Source: Pelagomonas calceolata (taxonomy: Eukaryota > Sar > Pelagophyceae > Pelagomonadales > Pelagomonadaceae). Taken from it: a DNA stretch of 64,000 nt. The stretch lies in the NCBI GenBank assembly GCA_918797485.1, contig CAKKNE010000004.1, forward strand, positions 2,914,001 to 2,978,000, given 5' to 3'. Below are positions 1,920 to 50,288 of this stretch, piece after piece. The position numbers and the translations under genes were made by a program. The notes under the pieces are model-generated. The model was given only the letters and a program-made list of their open reading frames with translations, ran no database searches and was not told the origin of the DNA. The stretch's first letter is position 1. Every line of letters begins with the position of its first letter.

Positions 1920-3527
1920 ATGGCCAAGACCAGTGCTTCCGCACTCGTTTGGGCCCTCGCGGCCGCGCGCGGATGGGCGCTCGTGGCGCCGAGCGCCGCG
2001 AACCACAAGACGCGCCTGCCCCCTTTACAAATGGGCGACTGGGCCGAGGCGAACGCCGCGAAGGCGCTGGACGCGCAGAAACGCATCGTAATGAAGTTCG
2101 GAGGGTCCTCCATCAGAGACGCGGAACGCGTCACGCACGTCGCCGATCTCATAGCGTCCAAAATTAGAGAAGGATTCACTCCGGCCGTGGTTGTGAGTGC
2201 CATGGGGACCACTACGAATGAGTTAGAAAGGGCCGGAGCGTTAGCTTTGGTCGATGGCATTGTTAGAGTAGACGAGATGCGCAAATTACATTTAGAAGTC
2301 TTGGATGAGCTCGAACTCCCAGCAAACGTGGGCTATGAGGTGAGACAACTACTCAGAGAGCTCGAATCGCTCTTAGATGGCGTGAGCATGGTCAGGGAAC
2401 TCACGCCGCGAACGAAGGACCTTTTAGTCAGTTTTGGAGAAAGGATGAGTTGTCGGATTGTGGCAGGCCAATTGAAGGAAGCTCATGACATCACGGCAGT
2501 CCCGATCGAAGCCTGGAATATAGGGTTAAGGACGGAGGGCGGCCACGGCGAAGCGCGGGTCGACGAGGAGTGTTACGACGACATCGCGCGAGCGTTGCGG
2601 TCGTCCATCGTCGAGCGGAACGAGGTACCAGTTATCACTGGTTATGTAGGGCACGACGCGGATGGTAGAGTTACGACTCTCGGTAGAGGTGGTAGCGATT
2701 TGACAGCTACTACATTGGCAAGAGCAGGGGCATCAGAGACACAGGAACCGCTCTTTGCGGAGGTCCAGGTCTGGAAGGACGTCGACGGTCTCATGTCTGC
2801 GGATCCGAAAGTCGTGTCGAACTCCGTCAACGTGCCCTTCGCTACCTATGAAGAAGCGGCGGAATTAGCTTATTTCGGGGCGTCTATTCTACATCCCACG
2901 GCTCTGAGACCGGCTCAAGTAGGGCAGTGTCCCGTTCGTATCAAAAATTCGTACAACCCGGACCATCCTGGTACGCTCATTGCCTCTCCGTCGAAGATCG
3001 ACGAGGAGCGGTCGCTGAAATCGTTAGAAAGGCCCGCATTGACGGCGATCACGGCGAAACGAGGCGTGACACTCGTGGATATTAGTTCTTCAAGGATGCT
3101 GGGCCAGCCCGGGTTTCTCGCGGCGATCTTCGAGGTCTTCGAGACGGACGGGGTCTCGGTGGATGTGGTGGCTACTTCCGAAGTTTCAGTCAGTCTGACG
3201 CTCGACCCCAAAGCTCATCTCGGCGACGAAGCTAAAAGATTTTTGTCGCCCAAGGGTCTGAAGCGCCTCGAGGACATCGCGCGCGTCGACGTGCGCGACG
3301 GGCGGGCCATCGTGTCCTTCATCGCGGACGTGGCTCGGTCCACAGAGTTGATCGCGCGCGTCTTCACGGTCCTCGCGCAGCGCGGAGTGAAAGTGGAGAT
3401 GCTGAGCCAGGGCGCGTCCAAGGTCAACATTTCATTAGTGGTCTTGGACGCCGACGCCGAGGAAGCTCTACGCATCATCCACGACGAGTTCTTTTCGACA
3501 TCGAAGGAGGCGGTCGCGTCGCGCTAA
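1920..3527 (+). CDS. aspartokinase, predicted plastid-targeted
   Basis: Phosphorylates L-aspartate to aspartyl-4-phosphate, the first step towards lysine, threonine and methionine. The 535-residue product has the amino-acid-kinase motif KFGGSS at residues 59-64, further conserved kinase segments (GRGGSDLTAT, VWKDVDGLMSADP), and two C-terminal ACT domains at about 375-430 and 455-510, the usual sites of feedback control by lysine or threonine. The first 20 or so residues are a hydrophobic signal-type segment followed by ALVAPSA, an ASAFAP-like cleavage site, so plastid import across the four membranes of a secondary plastid is likely. The ATG at 1920 is chosen because it yields this presequence. 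The last 60 coding bases overlap the tail of the convergent dephospho-CoA kinase gene. It is monofunctional: no homoserine dehydrogenase domain follows. Confidence 0.93.
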   Translation: MAKTSASALVWALAAARGWALVAPSAANHKTRLPPLQMGDWAEANAAKALDAQKRIVMKFGGSSIRDAERVTHVADLIASKIREGFTPAVVVSAMGTTTNELERAGALALVDGIVRVDEMRKLHLEVLDELELPANVGYEVRQLLRELESLLDGVSMVRELTPRTKDLLVSFGERMSCRIVAGQLKEAHDITAVPIEAWNIGLRTEGGHGEARVDEECYDDIARALRSSIVERNEVPVITGYVGHDADGRVTTLGRGGSDLTATTLARAGASETQEPLFAEVQVWKDVDGLMSADPKVVSNSVNVPFATYEEAAELAYFGASILHPTALRPAQVGQCPVRIKNSYNPDHPGTLIASPSKIDEERSLKSLERPALTAITAKRGVTLVDISSSRMLGQPGFLAAIFEVFETDGVSVDVVATSEVSVSLTLDPKAHLGDEAKRFLSPKGLKRLEDIARVDVRDGRAIVSFIADVARSTELIARVFTVLAQRGVKVEMLSQGASKVNISLVVLDADAEEALRIIHDEFFSTSKEAVASR

Positions 3528-7144: not shown

Positions 7145-9038
7145 TCAGAAGTCCTCCGGCGCCACGTGGACGACCTTCGTGTTTTCGAACTCCTCCTCCG
7201 CCATCATCGCGCCGAAGCGGTCGAAGTAAACGATGACGACTATCATGTAGCACAGCGGCAGAGCGATCATCGCGCCGAGGTCGAGGTAACCCGCGACTCG
7301 ACGGGCAACAATCTCGGACGAGTCGCTCAGCTCGTGCTCCGTTACCAAGTCCTCCAGGCGCACGTTGGCGCCGAGACTCGCACCGCCGCCGCTCGGGGCC
7401 TCCTGGGCCTCCTCGTCGTCGCCGCCGGCTTCGGTGCCAGGGTCCGCAGGAACAACGCGGCGCCTCAGACCGGGACTGCTTAGCATGAGCGTCTCAGCGT
7501 CGCTACTCACATCTTTCCTATCGATGGCCGCTTGGACGCGCCGCAGGACGAAGTCCTTCCGGCGTTTTCTCTCGAGCTTCACAAAGGGCGCGAGCATGAG
7601 TCCAATAATTGGCGAGTGATAGGCCGCGAGACCGTCCGTCTGATAGATGTCTCCCACCAAATCATACCAGACTGGCAGCGTTATGCTCTGCCCGTGAAGC
7701 GATTCCAATTTCTTTCGGAGCTTGAAAAACTTGGCCGAAGGCAGTCCCAACTTTTTGACCGCCTCTTCGACCTCTTTCTTATCGAGCACGCCGCTGTGGT
7801 CGTGGTCCGCCTTGACGAAGGCGCTCACCAGCTCATGCTCGCTCATCACGCCAGTCGAGGTCTTCACGCCGTAGAGCGACACCGACAGCACGGAGACGGC
7901 GAGTGTAGCCCAGGAGAACGAAAACGAGATGACGTGGAGCATGGAGATGATGGTCATATTACCCGTCTTTGGCAGCACCTCGAACGCGACAATATAGATC
8001 GCGGCGCTCGTGAGCAGACACGTGATACCTGCGTGACGTCGGCGGGTGACGCCATCCCCGCGAGACGTCAGCAATTTTAATTTCAAGGACGCCGGGTCGC
8101 ACCGAGCGAGATCCGCTCCCCAGACTGGGGGTTCGCAACGAATGCCAGGAATCCCGCCAACGTGGTCAGTATCATCGGCACGACGAGGCCGTAATTGTAT
8201 GTTTCGCTGTGGCGCCGCATTCGAAACTTGTACTTTATTATCGGGTAGGGCTCAGGACAGCAATCGTAAAAGCCATCAACAGCCGCGGTCCGTACCTCCA
8301 CTAAATCGAACTCAGGATTCGGCTGGTACGACTCAGCGAATTTGAAGGGTATGGGTTCGTCTCCCCCTCTAGGCTTGATGTCGACCTGTAAGCCGTGCAT
8401 ACTCCAGCTGCCGAATTCGAACGTACATTCCTGCTGATCGAAGGGGAACGTCCGAGGCTTCATGGGGCAGGGTAATCTCGATTCGACGGGCACGGACCGG
8501 GCGACATAGCCGCTCGAGTAGACGTTCGGCTGGACGCCCCCAGGCACCTGAAATACGCTTTCCACAGCATCGTAGATGATGGTGTCTGGGATCCAGATCT
8601 GCTTGTGCTCGTCGTTGCCTGCGTGGATCAGTTTTTTCACGCCGACGAGCAGACGCGAAGTTAGTTCTACGCCGCGGCGGTACCGAAGAACGTGAGTTCC
8701 GTGATGCCGCCCCAGTCCGCAGGGTCCCACGCTAATCGAAGATCCGTCCACGAGTGCCGCCACCAGGAGAAGAATTGGATCTCCTGGTTAGTGGTGTCGA
8801 GCTTTTGGAATTGTTGCAGTGCCAACTGCACCGAGACGAGCGCTCCGCGCTCCGAACCAAAGCTCGGCGGTTGTACCGTCATGTCATAATTGGCGAGCAA
8901 GGCCTGTTTGAGCAGGGTCTCGTTCCTTTGCTTGTAGCATTCCGCATTTGTGCAGGTGGTATCGAGAGCTAGGCCGACGGGTCCCCCAGCATGCGCATGG
9001 GGCAGCCCCAGAAGGAGCAGCGCCCAGCTGGTCGCCAT
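7145..9038 (-). CDS. nicotinic-receptor-like Cys-loop channel with EF-hand, paralogue 1
   Basis: Three exons (9038-8684, 8618-8103, 8028-7145) give 584 residues. A signal peptide is followed by a ligand-binding domain with loop-D-like RLAWDP, loop A WIPDTI, a 13-residue Cys-loop (CPMK...FPFDQQEC, about 169-183) and loop C with vicinal cysteines, FYDCCPEPYP, near residue 240. M1 holds the conserved Pro. M2 reads GERISLG|ITCLLTSA, with E at -1', S2', T6', L9' and E20', the pattern of cation-selective nicotinic channels. After M3 comes a cytoplasmic loop with a canonical EF-hand (DHDHSGVLDKKE, about 363-374), then M4. Inferred role: ligand-gated cation channel at the cell surface or an internal membrane, possibly Ca2+-modulated. 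The second intron splits M2. The ATG at 9038 is chosen because it begins the signal peptide. Confidence 0.9.
8029..8102 (-). other. spliceosomal intron inside M2
   Basis: A 74-nt GT-AG intron, phase 1, between the codons for RISL and ITCLL. The paralogue at 48475-50288 reads straight through this site, which defines the boundaries. The ends do not resemble the introner family. Confidence 0.85.
8619..8683 (-). other. spliceosomal intron in ligand-binding domain
   Basis: A 65-nt GT-AG intron, phase 1, between LTFF and NDEHK. The paralogue has uninterrupted LTFFGHDEHK at this point. CTAAC and CTGAT in the intron could serve as branch sites. Confidence 0.85.
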
Positions 9039-9442: not shown

Positions 9443-10456
9443 ATGCCAGCCTCTGCTGATGAATTGGCTGATCTGGAGGCCCGGCTCCTAGCCAAGCAGC
9501 AATTACAGTTCGATGCGCTTCAGAAGCGACTGCTGGGCAGCGTCGCCGCGCCGACGGCAGAGGAGATCGACCAGCCCTTTGCCGAGTATGCTCGGAATTT
9601 TTATGTGACCGCCGCTCTGATGCTCTGTCTCGTCGCATCGACGGTCTACCTCGCGTTCATCACCGCCGGGCTATACGGTAATGTGAGCCAAGTCACAATG
9701 CTTGCCTTCATGCCCTTTGTATATACAACGGGCTTTGGCCTCGTCTTCACTACGCTCGACTGCGAGATAGCAGGGAGGCGGGCTGTGCAGCTAGTTCGTG
9801 GATGTCACATCGGCATGATGCTGGCTGCACCAATTGTTTTTTGGCGCGCCGGCGAGCACGGTGATGCTTTAGTAATGTTCTTCTCGTTCGCATTAGATTC
9901 CATTTTATATCCCTGGCTCCTCAAAACTATCTGCGGACTCCTGAGAACGCGGTACGAGGGTTCGTTAACCGCCCAGGCGCAGTTTTACACCAGTCGAGCG
10001 CTCAAGATAGCCGGGTTCCAACTCGTGCTGTCCGTGTCCGCGGCGGCCCAGGGAATTGATGGGCTTGATACTTTTCCTCGGATTTGGGCAACGTTGACTT
10101 TTAGCACTGCGCTCCCACAGGTGTGGATGTTCCTGATTGGGGTCTTCGACGCTTGTGGGGTGGACCACCACGCGGCAGCTAAGCTTCGGGTCTCTCCCCT
10201 CCAAGCTGCGGCGCTCGCCTCTTGTGGCGCGCTAATCCTCTCGGGTTTGGCCGGGTACGTGCTGGCTGAGCAAAGGGACCCGAGCGAGAAGGCGGCGAGG
10301 CTCGTTATGTACGTGATGTTTATCGCGGTGTACCTTTGCATGCTTTTCGTCGGGAGGCTCCTTTGTGGCGCCCGTAAAACGATCTCCGGCGCGTCCCCGA
10401 GCGTGAAGCCGAAGCCGGCCGGGGGATTGGATGTGTTCGATATCCCCGGGGCATAA
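9443..10456 (+). CDS. unknown multi-pass membrane protein
   Basis: A single-exon frame of 337 residues. The first 45 residues are polar and helical (DLEARLLAKQQLQFDAL). Then come about eight hydrophobic spans, the first at about 52-75 and the last near 290-310, and a short polar tail. I recognise no family signature. An upstream ATG at 9436 is out of frame and stops after seven codons, so 9443 is the start. It lies head to head with the Cys-loop channel gene, and its 3' end is 30 bp from the stop of the dynein-like gene. An accessory membrane partner of the channel is conceivable from position only; the sequence does not show it. Confidence 0.75.
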   Translation: MPASADELADLEARLLAKQQLQFDALQKRLLGSVAAPTAEEIDQPFAEYARNFYVTAALMLCLVASTVYLAFITAGLYGNVSQVTMLAFMPFVYTTGFGLVFTTLDCEIAGRRAVQLVRGCHIGMMLAAPIVFWRAGEHGDALVMFFSFALDSILYPWLLKTICGLLRTRYEGSLTAQAQFYTSRALKIAGFQLVLSVSAAAQGIDGLDTFPRIWATLTFSTALPQVWMFLIGVFDACGVDHHAAAKLRVSPLQAAALASCGALILSGLAGYVLAEQRDPSEKAARLVMYVMFIAVYLCMLFVGRLLCGARKTISGASPSVKPKPAGGLDVFDIPGA

Positions 10457-10486: not shown

Positions 10487-13400
10487 CTAAGTGTCCACGA
10501 TAACCGTCGCCGGCGGCACAGCGAGCACTGCGGCGACGCCTCGGACAATGAAGAACGGCTGGTCCAGCACCTTGCCCGCGTCGCGTTCCGGTCGCGAGAG
10601 GCATTCGGACGCCGTCCGATTTCGCTCCGCGGTATTTTCGTATGCTTTCAGGTTGATCCAGAACAGAACCTCCGTGTGGCGCGTCGACGCGAAGACGGGG
10701 CAGCGGTACACGCCTTTTGGCGAGAGTCTTTCGGCCTCCTCGTCCTCATCGAAGAAGGCTTCTCGGGCGAGGGGAATGAGACTGACCACCGGCGCCGGAT
10801 CAAACGGCCCGTCGATGCGTTCGCACTCCCGCAGCGCCCCGCCGTCCGGCGCGAACTGGTCCCAGCGCGCGCCCTCTATCGTCATGCCCGTGATTGATAC
10901 GACTAGTTTGGGTGGCTCGACCGGCATTTTCTCATCTATGAGATCATCGCCGGGCGTCGCCGCGCGGCTCGCGGCCGGCGTCGACGCCCGCGACCGGGAC
11001 ACCTCGTCGCCCTTGAACGAGTCGAGGTCGCTCTGATCATCGTCCTCTTCGGGCTTGGCCCGCGAGTCGAGCCAGACCTCGTCGAGCGGGACGCCCCAGT
11101 GGCGCGCCGCCTGCAACCGCACTGCGTGCACAACGGCAGCTGGTTCCGCGAGTAGATCTAAAGGAATAGGACTCGGCGGCGCCAGGGCTTCGTACCAACC
11201 TGTGAGCAACCGCGCTCTGGCTTTCACGTGGTCGAACCAATCGCCGAGCGAGGCCATCGTTTCCGGTGGCGCCGATGCGTTGCGCCAGGCCGCGGGTATT
11301 TCGAGGCGCCGCAGCGACGAAGCAACATCTCCCAAACGTAGGCGCTCCTCGTCACTCGCTGGCGCCGAGCCCACGAGCGAACTTTGTAAAGCAGCCACGT
11401 CCGCGAAGACTTTGGAAGCCAAAATACGCAGTCTATCACGCTCCCGCAGCAATATCCCGTCGAACTCCGTCGGTGGGTCCGGCGCCTCGGTATAATCAGG
11501 CTCATCGGGCTTCGCATTTTTTGTGCGTCGCGCCCAGGCGCACGCGGCCTTGAAGGCCTGTTCGCGCCGCTTGGTGCACATGGCCACAATATCTTCTTCG
11601 ACGGAACCGACGGCCGCTTTCACGTCGGGCCTCGCTGCAGCGCCGGGCGCTTCGTCGGCGACGGGCGCATCGTCGGGCTCCAAGGACACCTGGCGGGGCG
11701 CCTCCTCGTCGAGCCTGGGCCCGAAGACGTCCGCCGCCTTGAAGCACAGGTCGAGCGTCGCCGCGAGCCGGACGTCGTCGAGCACGGTCTCGGGGAAGTA
11801 GGAACCGGCTCGTGCCGCCTTTGACGTCGCTGACGCAGATTCAGCGCTGCCGCGAAGGGCAGCAAGAATGGGCGCACCGCCGACCTCCTCCGCAGCTCGT
11901 TTCTCGGGCAGCTCCGCCGTCGTCCACGTCGTGGCGTCCTCGGGCCAATCAAGCAACTGCTGTGCTTTCGTCGAGCCGATCGACTTAGCGACGAATTCCA
12001 GCAACCGCTGGTCCACGTCACCGCCACAGCTAGTCGCTCCGATGCCCACAATGAGAGTTTGCAATTCCTTCCACCTCCCGCCTTTGACGGCGCGGCCGAC
12101 GGCTTTGAGCAGCGACCGACGGCCCGGCGGAGTAATTTCGGGCGCAATAAAAGGCCAAACGCCTTGGATGGCGTGAGAAGCCGCCCCTGAGAGTTGCGAC
12201 ACGCCGCCACCGTTCCAACCCAGGGACCCGAGGGCATCGCGCCGCTCGCCGCAGACCGCCAGAGTCGTCGCGCACCGCAAGGCCGCTTCTGATATGCCTT
12301 CATCATCACCAACGAGTGACGTCGTGCGTTCGACGGACTCGGCGAGCGTCCGCGGCGCGTCGAGCGCGACGACGGTCGACGCCGCGAGCAGCGCCTGCGG
12401 CACCGCCTTGACCGACGGCGCGGACACCAACCTTAGCGATGTGAGCGAGTCGACATGTGACTCCTCGCTAACGTCCTCGACGACGCTCAGCCAGAGCCGG
12501 AAGGTCGCGTGCGCCGGTTTGCCCGCGACGCCTCGCTCGACGAGCGGCTGGTCGACGGCGGCCCAAGCCACCGCAGATAGGATTTCAGGAGATGCAGTTG
12601 CGCAGTCTGTCACCAGCAGCCAGGCGCCCTCCGAGGCCGCCTGGGCGACCGCGCGGGCCGCGTGCGAGTCCGCGCCTACGACCACTAGCCTAACGCCGTT
12701 CGCGTCCGCGACGCGCTGCAGCGCCTCGCGACCGTCGTCGGCCTCCGGCGAGACGCGCAGAATGATAGGCGGTGCCGATTCGTCGTCCAGTGAAGCTGCT
12801 TTTTCGAGGGCAGAATCTTCCTCAGCTTGACCGAGCTCGGCCGCCGCGAAGGCCTCGAGCGCCGCAGCTAGCGCGTCGAAGCGGACCGCGCGTATGACGC
12901 AGAGCCGCTGCAGCGGGGTTAAATCCGCGTACGGGCTCGGGAACTCTTCATCATAAGGCGTCGCCGACTCCAGGACCTTCTCCCAATTATCGAGCGTCTT
13001 CTCGAGCCCCGCGAGCGCTGGAAGTGTGCCGCAGGCCTTGGCTCGTGCCCGCGCGTCCGCTGCGAAGAGCCAGTGGCCGCAGCGCGTCTCGTTCGGTAAC
13101 GACGCCCGGCGCGCGAGCTTGAGGTCTTCCAGCCGCCGTTTCGCGCCGCCGACGAGATTATTCCCACTCTTGAGCGCCATGAAATCCTCCTCGACCGGAT
13201 CCGTCGCGGGCCCGACCTCGCCGGTAAGCACGAAGCGCCATTCATCTCGTTCGGCGTCGCTCCAGTCCGGCCGGGCACACAAGCGCGCCTTGAGCGCGGT
13301 GAGTTCTTTACTGAGACATCCGCGGAGCGCCACCGCCGACGCCGCCCGGACGACGGCTTTACGAACTGCGGCGACGCGTTTGTGGACCTTCTCTTCTTCG

Positions 13401-15775
13401 TTTTCTTTCGTAGGCGCTTTGGGAGGCAGTCGCGCCGGCGTGTTGAGCGACGCGATGGCTCGACCGGCGCTCTGGAAGAGGAGATCCGATCCGATGGCGA
13501 GGCACATGGCCCCCAACCGCGCCGCGACCGGCCTTAAAGGTGCCAATGCAATCCTCCCTTGCCGGTCCTCCTCCCGCATCTCCGCCAGCTGCCCCCGCTT
13601 GAACCCCAGGTCCTTGATCGTCTCCTCGGCGTCCATGAGCACCTCGCGGTCGTCGAACAAATGGGCCGCAATGCCGGGACCGCGGCGATCCCTGCCGCAG
13701 AGCTTCCAGACGTGGACGTGCTTGCGCATCTCGGCCTGGAAGTCGGGCTTCGCCGCGGCCAGGCGCCCCTCGGCGTTTTTGAGTTCCTCGGCGATCGCAT
13801 TCGTACCGATCGCGTCGTGATCTCCTCCAATCGCCTCGCCGTCCGTCGGCGCCGCGCAGGTGACAAGGGCGCCGAAGAGCCGGTCCTCGGCCGCTTGGGC
13901 TTGGCGGTCCGCCACGGCCCGTTTGAACGCGAGCCGATCCAACGTGCTTGCTAGGGACGGCAGCTCGTGCTGCGCGACGCACTCCCACATGGCACGTGAA
14001 GATAACGCCGCACTCGGGTTGATCTTGACGACGTTGCAGCAGCCTCGCAATCTCGCAGATATAGAATCATCATCTGCAATCAGAAAGAGGTTGAAATTTT
14101 TCGGAGCTACCGCCCGGCCGCCTTGCACGACCGGGAGGAGCTCGAAGGGCAGCAGCGCCTCCCCCACTCCCTCGACGATGAGCCAGTGGCCATGCAAGGC
14201 GTCCGCGAGCGTTTCACTAAAATCCGCGTGCCCTATCCGGCACGAGAGCACGCCCGGCTCCCGCTCGCCCGTCTCCTCGTCGACGAACGTGCCGCGCTGC
14301 GGCCCCGTGGCGACGGCGCATCGCATGATGAACTTCCGCGCGACGCGCAGCGGGTCGATCAGTAAGGGCCACCGCGCGCACAGTAACGTGCAGGCCGCCG
14401 AGACGCCGCTCCCGGGCTCGTCGGCGTAGACCGCGCCCAGCCGCCACTCGAGCGTATCTCTCAAAGCGCCGAGCGTCGCGACCGTCAACGCGTCCGGGTC
14501 CTGGTCACCATGGGAAGGTTGTTGCGGGGCGTCCTCGAGCGCCGCCGGTTCGGATAGAGGAAGCACCTCATCGATACGCTTCCGCCACGCCTCCCAGAGC
14601 TCTAAGCGCTTCTCTAGATCGAGGCTCCCGAGATACGCGCCGGCCGCGCCCGCGAGGAGCGCGTCTCGACATGCATTCTCGCGCGCTGCTTTCAATCCCT
14701 CATATTCACAAGCCCAGCGCACGGCGTCGGCCGTCAGAGCCTCGGCGAACTGCACGGCAACCGTGGACCGCCGCTCGGCAATACCCTTCGCGTCGCCCTG
14801 GGCGAGGCTCGTCTCCTTCGCTTTTCTGTTCGCTTCGTCCAGATCATCCATGCGCTGCGAGATGGCCCCCAGCTCCTCGCGGCATGAGTCCTGCGTCGCC
14901 GCGTCTCCACTCTTCAAAGCCGCGGTCAACTCGTCGTTGAGCTCCGAGGCGCGGCCCTCGAGCGCTTCCCGATCCGCTTTCGCCTTGGCCGCGGCTTTCT
15001 TCTGCTGCGCCGCGATTTGCCCGGCGTTCGCCGTCGCCCACTTGAGCTGCGCCGCGGCCGTCTTCGCCGCGCGCCAGCACGTGAGCGCGCTATTCAAACG
15101 ATCGAGGCGCCGCCCCGTCTCCGCCACCCTCGCTGTATGAGCGCGCGCCGCGTCCCGCAGGAACGCGTGGAAGTGGCCCGGCGTCGCTTTGACATATTTC
15201 GCTGATATCGTGTGGAGGTCCGCCGCGAGCTGCGGCGCGTCCTCTGGCCACTCGGTTAACATAGAACGAGCCAGGTCCGCGCGCGCCGCGGCGTCATCAG
15301 ATCCGCAGCGCACGACGCACGCCGATGTAAAGAGAGCGGGCTCGCGCGCGGCCAGCGCCGCCGTCGCGCGGTTGTCGTCGCCGACCGTCGCGCAGACGAC
15401 GACGCGCAGGCGGCCACGGACGCGCGCCGCGCGCGCCGCGGCTTTCCCCGTGCGACTCGCATCGAAGTCGTCGTCGTCGGCCGTGGCCGCGGCCTCATCA
15501 CAAACCATGGCGGCCGCGAGCGCGCGCCACGCCGCGGCGTCGTCGCCGAGCTCGTCGTCGCCCACGACGATCGTCAATAGGTGCTGCTCGGTGGCTTCTG
15601 TTGGAATTTCCGCCGCTTCCTTCTTGGCGCGCTTTTTCTTGCCCTTCTTGCGAGCCTTCCGGGCCGGCGAGGGCGTCCGCGCGCGACTCTTTTTGGGTTC
15701 TGATTGAGGGGGCGCCGGGGCCGCCGCCTCCTCGACGGCCGGCGCGGGCGCGGGCGCCGGTGATGGTGCTGGCGC

Positions 15776-15807
<32 letters not shown>

Positions 15808-18800
15808 GCGCCGGCGCGTCGACGACCGGGGCCTCGTCCTCGATGACCGTGGGGAGGGGCGGCGGCACCGGCGGCGGCTTCGGCAGGCCGACGGGGCTCG
15901 GCTCGACGTCGCCGAGGCGACTTAAAGCCTGACACAGCGCCTCGCGGAAACTTGATGAGCCCTGCGTCCTTATTAAGTCCGACGCCGTCATGACCTCGCC
16001 GCCGATCAACCGGCACGCGAGCCGCGCGACTGTGCGGCGGCCCGACGCCGCTCCACCTAATAAAACGACGTGACCGCCCGGCCGGCGCAGGCACCGCGCC
16101 ACGCGCATGACGTCATGGATACACCGACTGACGGGATGCGCTATTGAAACATCCTCCCGCAGGGACTCCTTCACAAATGCGCCGTGGCAAAGCTTTGCGC
16201 GCGCGGCCGCCGCGTAGACCGGCGTCTTTTCTAAGCGAGCGTAGGCGCGTCGAGGTGGTGCCGCTTCTATGAGATAAGGCTTGGCCCGGGGCGGCGGAAT
16301 GTACGACGGCACCGACTCCTCGTCGACCGTCGACGCCTCTCCTCTTAATTTCCGCATGACATCATCCACCCCATCGTCGCGCAGCTCCGTCGTGAAGTAC
16401 GGGTCCGCGCCGAGCTCTCCCTCTTCTTCATCCGGCAACACCATGTCGCAAAAGTCAAGTTCTGAATCTTCGGGCACAATCGTCGAAAACTCCTGGCCGC
16501 CCAGCTCCTGCGGGCCCTCTTGAGATGCGGCGTCCTTCAGGAGGTCCTCGAAGTCGGATTTTGAGAATGAACCCGTCTCTGATAATCTATCCGCGAGGCA
16601 CCGCCGACACTCGTGCGCCCAGAGCCGCGTGAGCTCGGCCGCCTTCGACGGTGGAACGAGCAAAAACCCCTGCAGGATTCTTACCAAATCTCGTCGTCCG
16701 TACTGCAGGCCGCCCGTGTCCAGGACAACTTGTTGAGAAGAAGCGGGCTGTACCAAACCGCGGGCAACTTTGGCGCACTGCTGCACGAGCTCCACTGTGC
16801 ACCTCGCCAAGGCATCGATCGTGCGTGCCGGTTGACCTACTACGACGGACGCGAAGGCCGTCGCCAGGCCCAGCGCGCCCTCATCATCAACACGCAGCAC
16901 GCACATCCTCGACGCCAGCCGCGGCGCGATCTCCTGGAAACACCAGGGCGCGTGGCGCACCTCGCCCCTCTTCTCGACTCGATCAAAGTCGAACGGCAGC
17001 CCGTCCGACGCCGTGGCGACGACGGACACGTCTTCCAGTCGCATCGTACCCTCTCCAGTCGTATAGCTCTGCGCGTCGAGCACCTGTCTTACAAACTCCG
17101 ACGGCCCGCGCGGTAATAAAGCGACGTCGTCCATTCTGACAAATAAGGGTCCACCAATACCACCGAGGACGCCCCGCCGCCGCCGGTCGAGGCACCGCTC
17201 GAACGCACTCCGCAGATCCGCGGCCGTCGTGCCCAATGACGAATACACCGCACACGCATCGAAGGGCCGTTCGGCGGGCGGCAGTTCGCCGCGCCCCGGC
17301 GGCAGAACTACCGGCTCGGCACCCTCCAGGGCCTCGAGGGGCGCCAGCTCTATTTTCATATAGGCGCCCTCGGTGACGCCCGGCTTCTTCTTCTTCTTCC
17401 TCTTCTTGGGCGACTTTTGTGCCTGTGCTTTGAGCTCCTCCTGCGTCGTGATCAGCGCGCGGTCGAACTGCGTCGCGACGCCGTCGACGCAGCCCAACAA
17501 ACCTTGGAGCGCGGCCTGCGCCCCAGCGACGGCGTCGCCGTCGCGCATGCCGTCTATTAACAAGACCGAAGCGTTGCTGCACATGGCGAGCCGCGCGAGC
17601 CGCGCCCCGGCGGCGGCGGCCGGCGTCGGCAGGTAGATGGCACCGCAATGGTGTGTCGAAGGAATCGGGAGAGGAGGCGCCCGGGAGACCTTGGGCAAAC
17701 AGTCCGCCCACGGCACCCAGCGAGCTCTTCCAATATCGAGGCAGTAGCCATAAAGGTTGTCCTCCGGCAGGGGCGGGTAGAAGTCCACCAAAGGCCGCGC
17801 CTTGGCCACGAACTCCAGCTCGAAAGCAAGGCGCTCCTGCTCGGGTTGCACCGAGCCAACGGCCCACAGGAGCGCCCAGGCCACCGCACTATTCACGACC
17901 TCCGGCGCCCGCGCGCAGGCGCGTAGCGGGGGCAGCGGCGCGCCGGGCCGCGGTCGTAGGGGAGCGAGTAATAACCCATCCAAAAGAGCGACGAACGTCC
18001 CCGCGCACGACCCGCTCGCATGCTTCTGGAAGGCGCACGGCGCCAGCAGCGCTATGGCGGCCTGGAGCTTTGACTTGAGGGAAGGCATCGCGTCGGCCAT
18101 GACGTCGTCGACCAAGAGCGCAACTCTAGAACTCACGTCGAGCGTCGCATCATGTGAAGCGTAGTGCACGACTTGCAGCCGATTGATGAGCGCGGGCGAC
18201 GCGTTGGACAGGTCGTCCGTCTCGACGATGATGCGCTTGTCCATCATTGAGCTCCGGTGCGCGCCCTGCGCCGTCGGCGCCCCTATGTTATCAAGCGTCG
18301 CGCAGAGGACATCTCCAATCAAACCGTCAACAACACCATCGACGACGACGGTCTCGCACGTCTCCGACTCTTGCCACTCTCGGATCCGGTTCAAGTGCAC
18401 GTCGACGTGTTTCGTCCGCGTCCGGAGGACGGCGTCGAGCGCGTCCGGCGAACTGAGCGCTTGCGGGTAGACGCGCGTCGCCTTTAAAGAACGGAGTGCG
18501 CGCGACTTGCCGCAGCCCGCGGGTCCGACGACGCAGACGGCGCGCTTCGCTGCGAGGGCCTGCCGCGCCGCGACCAGCACATCAATGGCCTCGGGCCGCG
18601 GGTCGCAGCCCGCCTCGACTAGTTCCTGCCGGGCAGCTTCGCGGCCGTCGTCAGTGTCGTCCGGCGGTGCCACGTCGCCGCTCCAGTCGGCGAAGGCGTC
18701 CCGGACCAACTCGCGCACTAACAAAGAAGCGTTCTCCGAGGTAGATGCAAGCTTGAGGGCGACCTTGACGAAGGCGGCCGCGACAAGTTGACCGTCGCCG

Positions 18801-21800
18801 CGCGCGAGCGCGTCCTCGTCGTAGGCGGCGCGCGCCGCGGCCGCCGCGTTCACGCACGCGACCACGACGCGGACCGGGCGCGCCGACGCGAGCGCCGCCA
18901 ACGCGGACCACGCGGCGGCGCCTTCGTCCGACCCCGTCCGCGCGGCGGCGGCCGCCCAGCTCGCGTCACCTAGAAGTCTGATGGCGGACGCGAGCCGCCG
19001 GCCGCCGTCGATCGCGCCGGCCGACGTGAAGCCGTGCGCGGCGAGCGCGAGCGCCGCGACGCGGTGAAGGTCGGGCGCCGTCCGCAGAATTGGCCGCGCC
19101 CGCGCCGCCAGCGCGGCTGGGAACCGCGTCGGTAACCCGTCGAAGCAGAGGATGACCGCCGGGCCGTCTTCTCTCGATCCGGGCGGGGGCCGCCGGTGCT
19201 TCGGGCCGTGGGCCTCGTGGGGATGATGCGCCTCCGCGCGCGTCGCGTTTTCCAGTGAGGCGAGGTGCTGCGCCAGCGATGCGATCACATTAGAAGACGC
19301 CCTGGCGACGCCCGCGAGGACTAACCACAGACCGCCGTTCTCGAGGCCCGTGCAGACGCGCCTCAACAACGATTCGTCCACGTCCATGCAGTGGAGGCGG
19401 ACGACGGGCTGCGCCAGCATTTCTCCTAATTTCTCCGCTAGGCTCCGTTTGCCGGTGCCACCGCTGAGTGACGCAGTAACACCAACTCGCAGCGCCGCCA
19501 GAATCTCGAGCATGCATCTTTCACAATTCGGCGTGATGAACAGCGCCTCGCCCGCCGCGCCCCCTCGGTACTCGTCGCCGCAGAAGCGGCGACTCAACGC
19601 CGCCTCGGCGACGACGCGCCCCGCCTCCACGCCGTCCATGGCGATGGCCGCGGGATTCTCGAAGTAGAACCTCAAACGAGCAGCCCAGGCGAAGTCCTCG
19701 CAGGAAGCACACACGCTTTCAATTAACGAATCCGCCGCGTCTCGACCTTCGACCTCGAAGGCCGCAAAAGTTTGCAATTTCTGGAAAGTGTGCCTCGCGT
19801 GGTTTTCTTTCAGGCGTCGCGCCACGGAGTTGATGCGTACGAGTTGCCTCCTCTTTAACTCGTTCGTGCCCACGAAGCCTCTGTCCGTCAACAAACCCTC
19901 GGCCTCCGCCGTGAAGGCGCACCGCGCCGCCAGCAATCCAGAAGCCGCCTGCTGTTGTAAACACCAGGCGCCTCTCCCTGGTTCCTTGAGCATGGCCTCG
20001 GCAGAAGCTTGCGTCAGAGCTTGCACGGCCTCTTTCATACCTTTCTCGAGCTCGTTCAGCCACAACTCACAACGGCCGCCGGCGTCCACATCCTCGGTCT
20101 TCGCGAGTTCCAACGTTTCATGGATATCTTCCTCGTCAAAGGTCGACAGGTCGGCCTTCTTCGCGTAGGGCTCGTGCCGCGCGACCAACGCCTCGATCCT
20201 CAGCGAGTCTCCCACAAAACGGACGTCGGAAACGCCCGGGAAGCACAACACGACAGCTTTCCTCGCTCGTCTTTTCGTTTCGCGGGGGTCCTGGTCGGGG
20301 TCGCCGATCAACAAATCCCACAAGTCTTGTTCCGAGACCATGCAGAGCCGCGCGCAAGCTAATCTGCGAGCTTCCGCGAAGTCATGGATACCGCGCGTGG
20401 CCTCTTCCACATCAATCAAAGCGTCTTCTAATACGTTTTTCAGAGGAGCAAGTCGATCTTGAACTTCAATCACCCTCGCGCGGCCATTCACGCCCTTCGC
20501 GGCAGCACAGCACTTCGCGAGGGCCCTGGTGACTTTCGAGAAGGTCGCCGCCTCGTGGGGCAGCTGCTTCCTTAGGGCGTCGCCGCCGGCGGCAAAGACG
20601 GTAGCCAGGGCCTCCCACTTCCCTTGGACGGTCGCCCACCTTTCTAGCGTTTCCTCGGCTGCGCGCAATCGCGACGCGAGGTTCTTTACAGAAGCGTCGG
20701 CCATGACCGAAGGCGAATTGTCTCCTTCACCTGATAACGGCCCCGTGCGGCAGGCGTCGAGCTCGACCAGACACGTGTCGAAGGCCCTGAACAGCGCCTC
20801 CAACTTCACAAGCTTGTTGCCCGCGACGACGACCTTGGGGTCCTTCATCTTGCCGCTCTTGGCGCGCTCCGCGGGCCTTGTGACTTGGTGAGGCACGATG
20901 TCCAAGAGCTGATTGTTCCAGACGGCCTCGAGGCGGCGCGCCAGCGCCAGGGCCCGGCGGCACCTGTGAGCAGCGTCCGCGAGCCTTGCGACGGCGTGGC
21001 GGTTCTTGACTAAGGAATCGGTGATCCTCCGCACTTCGAAGCCCCTACCAAGAGGAAAGCCTAATAAAGCAGCGAGCTCGGCGCCCCACATTTCGAGGGT
21101 CGAGCACTCGTCTCCTTTTACAACCCAGTCCCGGTCGCCGCCGGCCGCCAGGCCCTTCACCACATAAGTCACGGCGTCGACGACGGGCTTTGCTCGAAAC
21201 GCCGCGGCGTCGAGCCCGCCCTCCAAATCTTGAACACATCGCGCTAGCCAGACCTGGCGCTCCGCCGACGCGACGACGCGCGCCGCGATCAATGACTTCG
21301 TCCAGGCCGGGCCCGCCGGCGCGTCGACGAGGCGGTCGACGTCGCCGTAACTCTCCCTGAGCTTTCCCGCGCCGCACCAGTCGCAGGCCGCGACGACGGC
21401 CGGGTCCTCGCGCGCCACGAGTCTCTCATTAAAAGCCTTCTTCGCGTTCGCGGCGTCCAGCAATGCTTGCCGGTCCGCGAGGATTTTCCCGCCGCGCCGC
21501 GCCAAGTCATAGGTCGGCTGCAGGTGGGCCAGGAAGGCCTCGTCGCGCGCCTCGCCGAGCCTCATGCTGGCAAAGGCGTCCGTCGCCTCGACGTTGTGCT
21601 CGCCAGCCGCGGCGAGGAGGCGGTGGGGCTCGAAGGCGTCGACGAGCGCTTCCAGAGAATCCGCCGGCGTCGGGTCTTTGCTGAGAATGCCCTCGCGCCG
21701 GTTCAAGTCGGCAAGTTCCTGCGTCAGCGCCTCGATGCTCTCCTGGGCGTCCTTGCAATCAGTTGACCGTTTCGCGACGGCCTTCAAGGCCCCGTCGAAG

Positions 21801-24800
21801 GCCGCGTCGCCCCGGAATCGCGCGGCGTCGTACTGGCACGCTTTCCGCACGAGCACCGCGGCCTCGGCCAGGCGCTCCTCGTACTCCGCCCTATCATCAT
21901 CTAAACGTTCCGTGTGCTGCGCGCGCATGCGTACGCATTCACCCTTGGCGCGTTTCAAGGATTTCAGCACTTTTGGTTCCCACGCTCTATCAGCTCGCGC
22001 GATGCACATGCCCTCGACGGCGTTGAGGGGCCTTCCATGTAACGCGCAGAGCTCCGCTATATTAGACGCGTCTCTGGCTGTGGCCAATATAGGCTTTATG
22101 AGCTGAGGCACCACTTCCACGAACTTTTCAACAGCCACGGTCGTCTCGGCGTCCGAGCAGGGCGTATCTAAAACAGCTTTGATTTTGCGCCATCGCGTCT
22201 CGCACCACGTCCCGATCAGGTAGCATTGGTCCGCGTGGCCATCCAACGTGTCGCGCCGCACGCCATGCAACGCGCGCAGCAGCGACCGCCGCGCGATGCT
22301 AGCGTCGCACTCCGTCAGGGCGCAGAGGCGCCGCGGCGAGGCGTCCAACGATGCTGACGCGGACTCGATCGTGGTCTTGCCTTCATTAAGTTCCCGGGCG
22401 ATCGTGCGGACATCTTTCGGGAGCGCGGGCGGCGCGGGGCCCAATCCTCCCTTCTTGACGGCGTTGCGCGCGCGACCCAAGGACGTGTCGGCGGGCTCCA
22501 GCTCGCACTCTTCATCATCAAGGTCGTGCGACCGCACATCCTCGGCATAGTTCCTTTTTAGTGACAGCTCGGCCGAGTCGCGGCCGCGCATCTCCCGCTC
22601 AAGCATGGCGCCGACGTCCCGCACATAAGTCGCGACCGGGTCCGCGGCCGTCGCCGCGCAGGCCCGCAGGCGCCGGAGGGCGTCGCGGACCCACGCCGGC
22701 TGCGCCTCCGACGCGCCGTCCCAGGGGCACGTGATCGCGCGCGGCGGCACGTACTGCAGATGACTTAGGGCGGAGACGCAGGGGTCGCCGCAGCGCGCGC
22801 AGCCCTCGAACAGCTTCTGGAGCGGCATGACCAAAGCGGCGGCGATGTCGGCGTCGCGGAGCTGGCCCTTCTTCGCAAAGGACCACTGCTTCTGGACCTT
22901 GCGCTTCTCCGAGGCCGTCATGTCGTCATTTAGATCATCCTTTATGTCGATGTCGAGGTCGAGGCGGAACCAGGGTTTTCGTAGGAATCGATCGTCCCTA
23001 CAAGTCTCCTCGACGGCTTCGACGTATCTCGCAGTCGCGATCCGCAGCGCCGTATCCAGCTCCGTGGCCATGGCGTACCGCGTCCGCTCCAGCAAGCGCC
23101 GCAGCGGCTCCTGGGGCGACTTGCGCGTGTCGAAGAGGTCCCCGTGGTACTCGACGCGCGTCGGGTCGAAGCACGGCTCCACGAGGCCGGTCAGGCCTGT
23201 CCGCAAGGCCTCGCCGACGTCCTTCGGCCAGGTTTTCTCAACGGCCGGGAGGCCTTTACTCAGGACCTCGGAGAAGAGGCGCTGAAAGGCCGCCGGCGAG
23301 AGCTGTACAGGGCGGTGGACAAGGAATGTGGCATCTAACGAATGCGTCGCAATGATCTTTTGAGCCCCCTGCGTCGCGCACAGAGCAAATCTGGAGCCCA
23401 CAAACGGGTGCAATTCGTTAAAATGGCCGTCGTCGTGCTTATCAACCACATCATCAGGAAAATGGATCTCCCGCGTCAAGCCGGCCTTGAGCGGCAGGAC
23501 GACCGGTTTTCGAGCGGGCGAGGCATTACCATCAATACGGTAGCCCTCGTCCGCCGTCGGTTCGTCAGAAGTGCCCCACTTACTTGAAATCCAATTCGCA
23601 TGTTGTCCCTCCTCCACATCCTCGTCATCAATCGCTTCCGAAGCCTCAGGAGCGACGTGGAGCAGGGCGTGCTTCGCCAGGAGGAACCGCCGGTGCGTAT
23701 CCTTCGAAACGAAGGCGTCCCTGTCAAAATCATCAAGTTCGGCCGTACAGTAACCCGGCGCGAACTTGACCGCCAGGGCATCCAACGCAGGCAAATCTAA
23801 TGTCCCGTCCGACGAGAGGAAGCGCACGTCTCTCGATGGAGCCTCGCCGGCGAAGGCTGCCTTGGCCAACTGGGCGAATATAAAACCCTGCATCTCGATG
23901 ACGTAGTCGCGCTCGGCCTCGTCCATTTCCTTGGCTAATTGAACATCGTTGCGCCAGGGCTTCGTTTCTCTATGTACACGTTCGTCTAAAGTGGGAAAGA
24001 GCTCGTTCCTCAAATTTGCGATGACTTTTTTGCACAAAGGCGCCGACGCGAAGAAGTGGCGGAGGCGTAGTCTTTCTTCACAAGCGGCGCGCCTTATAAG
24101 AGCCCCCTGCAACCGATTGATCGACACGAACCGGTCCTGCCAGGCACCGATCGTCGCGACGGCCGGGACCCAACTTTCAGGCGGCCAGGGGTCGTCGAAC
24201 CATTTCACGCGGTGGTTGCGCCCGTCGCCGTCGTCAGAATGCTGCAAGATGGTACAGGGCACCCACCGCCCCAACCTTCGTTCAAAGTCCGAGACCTGAT
24301 CACTCGGCGAGCGGTCCTGCCGCAACGCGACGGCCACGGGCTTTCCACCATACTTCCGCCAAGCTATGGTAGCGACCTCGACGTGGTCCGCGTCGTCAAA
24401 AATATGTAGGGGTAGCTGGGGCGCGTGGCTCAGGATCGCGCCGCCCTCTTTTGTGGAAGCCCAATCGGACATGAGCGCCCGCGCGGCGTCGCCTAAAGGC
24501 ATTTGATGGATCTCCTCGAGGCGCGCGGCGGCCTTGCGTTTCTTAATAGCGTCGCGCTGCTTTTGGGGCATCGCCGCCTTCCGAGGCCCGTCGATTTTTT
24601 GGGACGCGGAGAACTCGCTCCGCGGGTCCAAATGGGGCGGCTCGCAGCAGCCGACGCCCGGGTCCCGCTCAATTATGATAGGAGGCGGCGGCGTCTTCGG
24701 GCGCGGGGCCTCGAGGTTATCCAAGTCCATTGGTTGAACCACCCTCTTTCTTTTACTTAACTTGATGGGAGTGGGCTTTCTCACTCTAGGAACACTCCCA

Positions 24801-25819
24801 CTAATATGCGTCTCGGCGTAGCGCCTTAATAAAGCCTTGGAGCCGTCGTCGGCCTTCGCCAGATCGGAAAACGTGTCGACGAAGGCAGAAGCCGTCGAAA
24901 AAGCTAACGCAGCACCGCGCGCCTCGGCCTTATTCGGTCTTCCAGTATACCGCTTCTTTTGTTTAGGTTGGTAGTAGACGCCCGGCTTCTTCTCAACTTT
25001 CGGCTTCTTCTCCTTGGTAGCACCAGAGGGTGTAGTCGCCCGCGACTCCAAACCGCGCATTTGTTTGGAATATTCCGTCAATTGGTGCATCTGGGGCCCG
25101 TGGTCCTTCATGAAGTGCATGAACTCGTCGACGTCGACCAGGCCTGAAAAATCAACATCCAAAGCCCGCCAGAGGCCCCGCAGTTCGTCCAACGTTAAAT
25201 CTGCTTCACTGAGGTTGAGGCCGGGGTCCCGCATGCGCGTCACACCTTCGAGTTCTTCGAAGCCCATTCTTCCCGATTCATCGGTGTCGAAGTGGCCAAA
25301 AATTTTGAACCAGTTGCCGTCCGTGACACCGCTGCCCTCCTTCGAATATTCATGTACACATGCATCGTTCAGCTGCTGGCAGATGCGTTGTAAAGTTGCC
25401 TTCTGGAGCACGGGCCAGTCATCTAATATGAGCAAGTAGCAGGCGTGCTGGAACTCGTCGATGGTCACTTCGCCGCTCTTGTCGTGGTCCACATACGCCC
25501 ACAATCCTTCCAACTCTTCTTCTTTTATCTCCCCTTCCTTCCGGGGGACCTTGGAGTCCTTGCTTCGGATCGGGATCTCCAGCACGTCGGTGAGCGCGGT
25601 CTTGAACTCGTCGTAGTCGAGGCGGCCGCTCTTGTCCGTGTCGAGGCGCTCGAAGAGTAACGACCAGTTCTTGCGCATGCAGCCCTTGACGTCCCACTTC
25701 TCGTAGAGCTTGGGAAACGCGTCGTTCATGCGGAGCACGACGCTCCGCAGCACGGGCGCCGGGAGGCCGCTGGTCTCGTGCTGGTCGTGCCGCGTCGGGC
25801 GGCGGTTTTCCGAGACCAT
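10487..25819 (-). CDS. dynein-heavy-chain-like giant protein with EF-hands, motor signature lost
   Basis: One intronless frame of 5110 residues. Four EF-hands open the protein (loops at about 60-71, 111-122, 178-189 and 221-232). A long helical tail and linker follow, then a dynein ring. At AAA1 (about 2115) the Walker A reads LSGGTGKR instead of GPAGTGKT, and the Walker B position reads VLAGVAR instead of a DE-containing CFDEFNR-type motif. AAA2 keeps an intact GPAGCGKS (about 2433). AAA3 has no P-loop (LLIDGMRDGD, about 2755). AAA4 has GGAASGRRT (about 3256). The stalk region (about 3570-3730) is a continuous coiled coil with no room for a microtubule-binding head. AAA5 (RWPLLIDP) and the dynein C-terminal domain (GMTIEGARWD, CPVF) are recognisable. 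Most likely a non-motor dynein relative; DNHD1 is one family to compare. Confidence 0.88.
15620..15840 (-). repeat. Pro/Ala dipeptide and basic low-complexity insert
   Basis: Within the AAA4 region of the dynein-like gene, a PAPAPAPG-type run of about 35 residues is followed by a Lys/Arg-rich stretch (KKGKKKRAKK) near residues 3325-3400. The DNA is a GGCGCCGGTG-type tandem repeat. It breaks the AAA4 fold between Walker A and the rest and has no counterpart in ordinary dyneins. Confidence 0.8.
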
Positions 25820-48474: not shown

Positions 48475-50288
48475 TCAGAAGTTCGCCGGTGCCACGTGGT
48501 TGATCTTCGTCCCCTTGAACTCCTCTTCCTCCGTCATCGCGCCGAAGCGGTCGAAATAGACCTGCGGGGGAATCGGGTTGAAGGAGAGAAGTTGCGCCGA
48601 GAAATGACACGGGGCACGACGATGACCACGATCATGTAGCACAGCGGCAGGGCGACCATCGCGGCGAGGTCGAGATATCCCGCGACGCGCCTTGCGACGA
48701 TTTCCGACGAGTCGCTCAGCTCGTGGTCCGTGACGAGATCTTCGAGGCGCGCGCCGCCGAGGCCTTCGCCCGGGGCCTCTTCGTCGCTGCCGCCAGCTTT
48801 TGTGCCGGGTTCGGGAGCGACGGCTTTCGTCGACGGTTGGCGGCGCCTCAGGCCCGGACTGTTCGACGAGTTTGCTTCCGACATGGTGCTTTCGCTGAGG
48901 TCCTTCTGGTCGTTGGCCGCCTGGACCCTTCTTAGCACAAATGCCTTGCGTTTGCGCCGTTCGAGCTTCACAAAGGGGATGAGGATGATCCCGACGATAT
49001 ACGAGTGATAGGCCGCTAGGCCGTCCGTCTCGTAGATGTCGCCCACAAGATCGTACCAGACCGGAAGCGTTAATCGCTGTCCGTGGAGCGAGTCCAGCTT
49101 CTTTCGTAGTTTCTGTAGCTTAGCTGGTGGCAGTCCTAACTTCTTGACCGCATTCTCCACCTCTTTTTTGTCGAGATCGCCGCTTTCATCGGTGTCGGCC
49201 TTCACGAACGCGCTGACCAGCTCGTATTCCGACATCACGCCAGTCGAAGATTTCACGCCATAGAGCGATACGGATAGCACGGACACGGCGAGTGTCGTCC
49301 ACGAAAACGCGAAAGAAAGAACATATAGCAAACTAATAATCGTCATATTACCTGTCTTCGGCAGCACCTCAAACGCCACAATGTAGAGCGCTGCGCTTGT
49401 GAGCAGACACGTGATCCCGAGCGAGATGCGTTCCCCTGATTGTGGGTTTGCCACGAACGCCAGGAACCCTGCGAGCGTCGTGAGGATCATGGGCACGACG
49501 AGGCCGTAGTTATACGTCTCGCTGTGACGCCGCATTCGAAACTTGTACTTTACTATCGGGTAGGGTTCCGGACAGCACCCGTAAATGAAATCAATAGCTG
49601 CAGTTCGTACCTCCACTAAATCGAACTCGGGGTTCGGTCGGTACGAGGCAGCGAGGGTAAAAGGCGCGGGTTCGTCTCCCCCTCTAGGCTTGATGTCGAC
49701 CTGGAAGCCATGAGTTGACCAGCAACCAAATTCGAATTCACATGTCTGCTCGTCGAAGGGAAACGTGCGCGGCTTCATAGGGCAGGGTAATCTCGTCTCG
49801 ACAGGAACGGATTGCCACACGCCGCCGCTCGAGTACACGTTAGGCTGCACGCCGCCTGGTACCTGAAACACGCTTTCTACCGCCTCGTACACGATTGTGT
49901 CCGGGATCCAGATCTGTTTGTGCTCGTCGTGGCCAAAAAACGTTAACTCGGTGATACCGCCCCAATGATCCGGATTCCACGCTAATCGAGGATCCGTCCA
50001 CGAGTGCCGCCACCACGAGAAGAATCTTATCTCTTGATTCGTGGTATCGAGCTCTTGGAATTGCTGCAGCGCCAACTGAACCGAGACGAGTGCGCCGCGC
50101 TCCGAACCAAAGTGGGGTGGTTGTATCGTCATGTCGTAATTAGCGAGCAGCGCTTGTTTGAGCAGGGTCATATTACGCTGCTTGTAGCATTCCGCATTTG
50201 TGCAGGTAGTGTCGAGGGCCAGACCGACTGGGCCTGCCGCGTGGGCCAGTGGAAGCGCGACGAGGATTAGCGCTGCCCAGCCCGCCAT
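48475..50288 (-). CDS. nicotinic-receptor-like Cys-loop channel with EF-hand, paralogue 2
   Basis: Exons 50288-48621 and 48561-48475 give 584 residues, the same length as paralogue 1 at 7145-9038 and collinear with it. Signal peptide; RLAWNP; WIPDTI; Cys-loop CPMK...FPFDEQTC; loop C FIYGCCPEPYP with vicinal cysteines; Pro-containing M1; M2 GERISLGITCLLTSA with E-1', S2', T6', L9' and E20'. An EF-hand DTDESGDLDKKE sits in the M3-M4 loop, followed by M4. The two introns of paralogue 1 are absent; instead a 59-nt intron interrupts the end of M4 (VIV|YFDRFG), after which the last 28 residues resume the paralogue-1 alignment. Without that intron the frame would run into a short unrelated tail. Inferred role: ligand-gated cation channel under Ca2+ influence. 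Confidence 0.9.
48562..48620 (-). mobile_element. intron at the end of M4, possible decayed introner
   Basis: A 59-nt GT-AG intron absent from paralogue 1. On the gene strand its end reads GATTCCCCCGCAG, close to the introner end GATTTCCACACAG, and CCGTGT lies 8 nt after the donor. The segment CGCCGAGAAATGAC on the plus strand also occurs inside the full-length introners. The 8-bp flanks match poorly (GTCGTGCC against GTCTATTT). Splicing is secure from the paralogue alignment; introner origin is tentative. Confidence 0.5.

Follow-up and report, generated by a model that had tools for sequence, protein, structure and literature searches.

Cationic-type Cys-loop receptors are described from Aureococcus, Emiliania and ciliates by Jaiteh et al. 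(2016), the accessible part of whose article gives them a pre-metazoan origin and states that a biological role is known for no unicellular pentameric ligand-gated ion channel (pLGIC; PMC4795631). In a word search, ‘EF-hand’, ‘calcium’ and ‘vicinal’ were absent from the main text of that article. A diatom survey mentions, in its accessible part, Cys-less pLGICs in diatoms (PMC11085791). Among the titles and abstract openings of the open-access papers that our searches listed, we found neither an EF-hand in a pLGIC nor a complete nicotinic site in a protist. Here we describe genes A and B, two paralogous receptor genes in a 64,000-nucleotide stretch of Pelagomonas calceolata DNA (contig CAKKNE010000004.1, positions 2,914,001 to 2,978,000; hereafter the window). 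Each encodes a Cys-loop receptor subunit that combines all five aromatic residues of a nicotinic ligand-binding site, vicinal cysteines in loop C, and a predicted EF-hand lobe between the membrane helices M3 and M4.

Genes A and B belong to the same class as the protist receptors, and Aureococcus is perhaps of the same algal group, going by the accessible text (PMC4795631). An earlier note on this DNA had pointed to a nicotinic-type receptor in an alga; the receptor is real, but its novelty was overstated, as receptors of this class had been published in 2016. As far as these searches show, the receptor class is known, and it is the union of a complete nicotinic site and a built-in EF lobe that is new to the open-access literature; the sequence set of PMC4795631 may contain orthologues of A and B. 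We put at roughly 55% the probability that A and B form an onium-gated, cation-selective Cys-loop channel with Ca2+ feedback through the EF lobe, descended from a stem lineage predating the split between nicotinic acetylcholine receptors (nAChRs) and 5-HT3 receptors.

Two paralogous Cys-loop receptor genes

Gene A lies on the minus strand at 7145-9038, in agreement with the earlier note, and comprises three exons (9038-8684, 8618-8103 and 8028-7145) whose three reading frames join at GT-AG borders to encode a cationic-type subunit of 584 residues. Intron 1 (8619-8683, 65 nt) and intron 2 (8029-8102, 74 nt, within the codons of M2) are both missing from gene B. The protein matches the Pfam families Neur_chan_LBD (E 9.5e-43, 146.6 bits) and Neur_chan_memb (E 2.4e-7, 31.7 bits), each over its cut-off, and carries the FPFD tip, pre-M1 arginine (R254) and M1 proline (P266) of the pLGIC superfamily. 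Its Cys-loop (8425-8469), with an FPFDQQ tip, runs from C169 to C183 with 13 residues between, as the earlier note had it; the same C-13-C spacing, that of eukaryotic Cys-loop receptors, is found in B. The signal peptide proposed there is probable: residues 1-18 of gene A (8985-9038) end in AHAG, both copies start with a hydrophobic stretch and then AHA, and the residue is unchanged between A and B at 10 of the 18 codons. Upstream of the ligand-binding domain, an extra cysteine pair (CTNAEC, gene A residues 29-34) is kept in B and could form an additional disulfide.

A search of the PDB with the gene A protein returned 339 distinct sequences. Among the best 60 of these 339, the alpha-7 nAChR ranked first (E 8.7e-42, 146.6 bits), followed by alpha-6, Torpedo alpha and alpha-4, and then by beta subunits, 5-HT3A and nematode nAChR-type receptors including a betaine receptor. 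Alpha-7 (PDB 43sn/7eki) shares with A and B the Cys-loop, the five-residue aromatic box, vicinal cysteines with EPYP, and an M2 of the form GE[K/R]ISLGIT.LL with E-1', S2', T6', L9' and E20'. It differs in its loop E residues, in the EF lobe that A and B carry after M3, in an M2-M3 insertion that A and B lack, and in not grouping with them in the tree; the extracellular domain (ECD) is 31% identical (64/204). Mouse 5-HT3A (PDB 4pir) is likewise a cationic Cys-loop receptor with SGER before M2 and 27% ECD identity (58/213), but it lacks the vicinal cysteines, has N for Y93 and I for Y188, and, we presume, has no EF lobe.

Gene B, first met in a Pfam scan of other open reading frames (ORFs) in the window as a ligand-binding domain at 48534-50327, lies on the minus strand at 48475-50288, about 40 kb from gene A. 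It also encodes 584 residues, in two exons (50288-48621 and 48561-48475) separated by an intron at 48620-48562; an alternative donor 3 nt further in would add one codon. Its Neur_chan_memb score is 28.8 bits in the longer ORF and 26.3 bits for exon 1 alone, the latter below the 28.1 cut-off. Of 577 aligned residues, A and B share 476 (82%), with 93% identity over M1-M3, 85% over the canonical EF-hand (EF1) and 53% over the acidic linker. The corresponding dN/dS ratio (NG86) is 0.129 overall, 0.119 in the ECD, 0.037 in M1-M3 and 0.262 in the acidic linker, and the pair is under purifying selection. The existence of this conserved sister gene makes the earlier observation stronger than it was first stated.

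At both intron sites of A, gene B has continuous coding sequence, which supports A's two splice joins. Since B lacks A's two introns and A lacks B's single intron, introns have turned over since the duplication. We excluded a mis-spliced or pseudogenic model of gene A (read-through in B; dN/dS 0.129), an origin of B as a simple intronless retrocopy (its own intron is absent from A), and an introner origin of A's introns, of which the window holds no repeated copies. No third receptor copy was found in the window by blastn or tblastn with A and B; apart from the two genes, tblastn gave weak matches only, the best of which, to B (26% over 118 aa, E 0.003) at 40673-40999, is interrupted by a stop and is no receptor.

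Binding site, pore and EF lobe

Loop C of gene A reads FYDCCPEPYP (8242-8271), with adjacent cysteines 238/239 as previously noted and tyrosines 236/243; its counterpart in B is IYGCCPEPYP (49557-49586, minus strand). In alpha-7 numbering, both proteins keep the vicinal cysteines C190/C191 and five of five box residues: W55 (loop D), Y93 (loop A), W149 (loop B), and Y188 and Y195 (loop C), which we take to be the aromatic-box positions of alpha-7. In the alignment used for the box and loop E, the second loop C cysteine of Torpedo is displaced by one column. Among 34 prokaryotic rows, none has more than two of the five box residues.

We compared these features with 35 prokaryotic loci gathered via PF02931 and GLIC. 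The searches covered 6, 398, 292, 148 and 199 genomes, with 5, 7, 13, 6 and 7 positive, respectively, plus one further locus (L006); the genome sets overlap through their starting genomes, and five duplicates (L001-L005, of L007-L011) were omitted. Neither vicinal cysteines nor C-13-C spacing occurred in the matched region of any locus (0/35 each), and no ORF contained an EF site (0/35). An earlier count of vicinal cysteines had looked only after a [FY]PxD/E motif that is missing from L014, L015 and L027; counting again across the entire matched region also gave 0/35. In viral contigs, no relative was found with the A protein (18 stretches) or a four-row alignment (42 stretches), and tblastn against phage records gave no match. 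Two peptide patterns run on genome contigs, including the loop C pattern Y[GDE]CC[PKS]EPY, returned 64 stretches, none of them a relative.

The M2 pore helix of gene A (GERISLGITCLLTSAAIYIVAFE; S284-E307, 7979-8124, split by intron 2) differs from that of B at one position and carries E-1', R0', S2', T6', L9' and E20', in what we take to be the M2 prime numbering as placed by alignment to alpha-7. In this alignment E-1', S2', T6', L9' and E20', the residues named in the earlier note, match alpha-7, and GER precedes M2 in both A and B. From this GER-type signature we infer cation selectivity. For the protist receptors, too, cation selectivity is inferred by Jaiteh et al., in the accessible part of their article (PMC4795631).

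Gene A contains a single PROSITE-type EF site, DHDHSGVLDKKE (residues 365-376, 7772-7807), and gene B likewise contains one, DTDESGDLDKKE (49161-49196, minus strand), which differs at loop positions 2, 4 and 7 only. Both have the ligand positions 1, 3, 5, 9 and 12 and the G6 of a 12-residue EF loop. Hydropathy places M3 at about residues 317-345 and M4 at 541-559 (7223-7279), so that the sequence scan, hydropathy and the paralogue together bear out an EF-hand within the M3-M4 loop, as first proposed. The PS00018 pattern matched 32 of 20,000 shuffles of the A protein and 54 of 50,000 shuffles of its M3-M4 loop; we rejected a chance motif on the former rate and on retention in the paralogue.

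The EF module is predicted to be a paired lobe (gene A residues 352-418, 7646-7846; gene B 49035-49235, minus strand) with one canonical loop and a degenerate partner. An AlphaFold2 model of the 81-residue EF segment, from a two-row alignment, has a mean pLDDT (predicted local distance difference test) of 74, four helices, and a single bridge residue per loop. Foldseek with this model gave 345 matches at E up to 10. The best 50 of these 345 reach probabilities up to 1.00 and TM scores of 0.41 to 0.61 on query length, include Cdc31/centrin, a myosin-bound light-chain-type chain, calmodulin, ALG-2 and CDPK chains, and are, judging by title and general knowledge, all presumably EF-hand chains or complexes with one. 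In a phmmer search of the PDB, the 81-residue EF segment of B matched 28 sequences up to E 0.1, which we take by name and general knowledge to be EF-hand proteins. The top match, radial spoke protein 7 (E 9.3e-8), sums several weak stretches of which none is significant singly; centrin follows (E 1.8e-5) with one stretch that passes, and calmodulins lie at about 0.05-0.1. The lobe shares a helix-loop-helix pair with centrin and calmodulin; unlike theirs, it has one canonical loop only and forms part of a channel's cytoplasmic loop.

The EF lobe begins within about 10 residues of the end of M3. Animal receptors carry the MX helix at the position just after M3. An amphipathic basic stretch C-terminal to the lobe (gene A residues 429-450, 7550-7615) could be a displaced MX, judging from its sequence and hydrophobic moment and from a long helix over these residues in a low-confidence AlphaFold2 model of B.

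Position in the receptor tree

We placed A and B in a 45-row tree with nine animal references and 34 prokaryotic rows (LG+C20, PMSF), after dropping L017 (177 aa, under the length filter) and two poor rows, L006 and L029. A and B group with the animal cationic receptors at 100/99 and stand beside nAChR, acetylcholine-binding protein (AChBP) and 5-HT3 at 93/45. Once AChBP, a soluble protein, and the long prokaryotic rows L027 and L034 are taken out, the resulting 42-row tree recovers a clade of nAChR and 5-HT3 without A and B at 96/97. The animal cationic clade likewise excludes A and B with the loop C columns removed (100/97), from the ECD only (96/93) and from the transmembrane domain (TMD) only (95/94). 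Of the nine animal rows, seven come from vertebrates, and that of alpha-7 extends only to the start of M3. The GE[K/R] before M2 and the grouping with animal cationic receptors make A and B members of the cationic-type clade; support of 96/97, with few animal rows, stands against their descent from within the animal nAChR clade. The animal nicotinic-type architecture claimed in the earlier note therefore holds for the vicinal cysteines, the five-residue box and the cation-type M2, but not as a place inside the animal nAChR family.

That note had offered two origins, old eukaryotic inheritance or acquisition from an animal. In the second, the alga would have taken up an animal nAChR gene that gained its EF-hand later, and the best PDB match to alpha-7 and the nearly identical CC/EPYP loop C are what such a transfer would leave. 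Approximately unbiased (AU) tests on the 42-row alignment, with eight animal sequences and with groups named after the first tree had been seen, weakly rejected A and B inside nAChR as against 5-HT3 (p 0.043) and rejected them with alpha-7 (p 0.016), with alpha-7 and alpha-9 (p 0.017), and with the three CC-bearing alphas (p 0.028). A and B as partners of 5-HT3 alone were not rejected (p 0.186), so a place within the animal cationic receptors is not firmly excluded. For the grouping of the eight animal receptors without A and B, the test gave p 0.0065. Together with the 42-row tree and its three sub-alignments, and with a GC content at third codon positions (GC3) of 0.75 in gene A, within the 0.67-0.86 range of ten other window ORFs (B included), these tests make the transfer very improbable in our view. 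The nAChR and 5-HT3 clade without A and B, together with the AU tests, therefore makes old inheritance likelier than acquisition of an animal nAChR gene.

It follows from the tree position that the split between anionic and cationic Cys-loop receptors predates that between the algal and animal lines, or that the gene moved very early. If the stem position is right, the common ancestor would already have had the vicinal cysteines and box, and the 5-HT3 line would have lost them. More specifically, it is possible, though we hold it only tentatively, that the nicotinic box and vicinal disulfide arose before animals in a unicellular eukaryote and were lost in the 5-HT3 and non-alpha lines, persisting in algae as a sensor of environmental onium compounds that is here fused to an intrinsic EF-hand Ca2+ sensor.

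Proposed mechanism, genomic setting and meaning

We propose that A and B would act as subunits of a pentameric, cation-selective Cys-loop channel in the plasma membrane. A small onium compound from outside the cell (choline, acetylcholine, a betaine or the sulfonium dimethylsulfoniopropionate (DMSP)) would be held in the nicotinic-type aromatic box, with loop C capped over it by the vicinal disulfide. Binding would open the GER-type pore to Na+ and Ca2+, and incoming Ca2+ would bind the EF lobe directly below M3 and alter gating or desensitization, giving each channel its own Ca2+ feedback sensor. It would be the first pentameric channel that we know of to have a built-in Ca2+ feedback module between M3 and M4. 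The lineage of A and B would stem from the cationic Cys-loop branch at a point older than the nAChR/5-HT3 split.

Several results weigh against this proposal. The loop E contacts of alpha-7 (N107, L109, Q117 and L119) are replaced by Q, N, A in gene A or W in gene B, and S; with all four replaced, acetylcholine itself may not be the ligand. The M2-M3 loop of A and B lacks the one-residue insertion and the P29'/G26'/Y24' set of animal cationic channels, and the start of M3, MT-IISML in A aligned with VPLIGKY, is not of the animal type. In full gene A, Pfam EF-hand_6 has E 0.002, under its gathering score, and the cut-out EF segment reaches 22.1 bits for EF-hand_1 (cut-off 25.4) and 22.0 for EF-hand_6 (cut-off 25). 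The second EF loop is without canonical ligands, no Foldseek match to the EF model reaches E 0.001 (best 0.053), and the AlphaFold2 model of full B from one sequence is poor (mean pLDDT 43) and globally unusable. The dN/dS values of the EF segment (0.079 for EF1 and 0.083 for the partner EF) are rough because synonymous sites are near saturation (pS, the proportion of synonymous differences, 0.69) in a short segment. Finally, the TMD-only tree does not unite cationic and anionic Cys-loop receptors in a single clade. According to the accessible part of Jaiteh et al., P29', G26', Y/F24' and the insertion before M3 are typical of metazoan cationic members (PMC4795631), and the absence of an animal-type M2-M3 and M3 signature agrees with a stem position for A and B.

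As the box is kept and the complementary side changed, the onium end of the ligand would be held as in nAChRs and its tail would meet other contacts. Acetylcholine is a candidate ligand in our view, though not the leading one, with choline, betaines or DMSP appearing equally likely. Pelagophytes accumulate DMSP to 13.79 to 233.81 mM, according to the accessible part of one study (PMC11306096).

In a different account, A and B are an ordinary cationic Cys-loop channel that gained vicinal cysteines and box independently and whose EF-hand is decaying, or is a structural insert with no role in Ca2+ signaling. It draws on the degenerate state of one EF loop of the pair, on the sub-threshold EF Pfam scores, and on a loop E that is not nicotinic. 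However, five box residues, vicinal cysteines and EPYP would be hard to acquire jointly by chance, and the side-chain ligand positions of the EF-hand are unchanged despite 15% residue divergence and a pS of 0.69 in the 34-codon EF segment. We consider such independent gain unlikely.

The surroundings of the two genes fit an alga, likely a pelagophyte. The window has a GC content of 64.6% and long open frames, one of 5110 aa. Two 204-bp repeats (29730-29933 and 57823-58026) that are 91% identical and have terminal inverted repeats are introner-like elements; by eye, they have GT-AG ends inside coding frames that rejoin, as judged from these two copies and from DNA alone. The GC content of Pelagomonas is 63%; its genes average 0.45 introns, and intron lengths peak near 210 bp, a peak that the accessible part of PMC9481584 attributes to introners of Aureococcus; introners with terminal inverted repeats, and those of Aureococcus, are described in the accessible part of PMC9860276. 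The introner-like elements fit the non-animal, eukaryotic gene that the earlier note had proposed and, together with the neighbor-like GC3, rule out an animal contaminant contig. Mutually similar stretches of 90-350 bp (68-77% identical) at 56957-58251 are probably a repeated protein domain around one introner-like copy.

Other features of the window include an aspartokinase with ACT domains and a signal-peptide-like leader (1920-3527, plus strand) and, about 400 bp from gene A and in divergent orientation to it, a gene (9443-10456, plus strand) for a 337-residue protein that seems to have several membrane helices and matches no Pfam family. The window contains no tRNAs and no Rfam match at gathering scores, and a motif scan gave no hit to heterokont plastid leader motifs. 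Of the nine EF sites in a six-frame PROSITE-type scan of the window, A and B account for one each, a dynein heavy-chain ORF and the ORF at 59785-63606 for three each, and position 36541 for the last. The dynein ORF (10487-25819, minus strand) is uninterrupted over 5110 residues; its product is a divergent heavy chain whose N-terminus carries EF-hand pairs. The ORF at 59785-63606 (plus strand, 1273 residues) has several EF-hands; with the dynein and the two receptors, it makes the window EF-hand-rich.

This setting bears on where the channel would reside. It might sit in an internal or ciliary membrane, such as that of the flagellum, as a Ca2+ source for movement and not as a surface chemoreceptor. 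The dynein heavy chain in the window, of flagellar or cytoplasmic type, and the radial spoke and centrin proteins among the top EF sequence matches point in this direction. Unrelated neighboring genes are weak evidence in eukaryotes, though, and a centrin-like EF-hand is uninformative on location, so that we regard a ciliary or internal channel as quite improbable.

Overall, an onium-gated channel from the stem of the cationic branch, if correctly read, would make the acetylcholine-type binding site older than synapses and turn the pre-nerve role of such receptors into a testable question. With its EF lobe, the channel would then be a natural case of a ligand-gated pentamer able to read its own Ca2+ signal independently of calmodulin, and would help in sensor design and in learning how gating can be governed by the M3-M4 loop. 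Genes A and B suggest that the nicotinic-type receptor design is older than animals and nerves.

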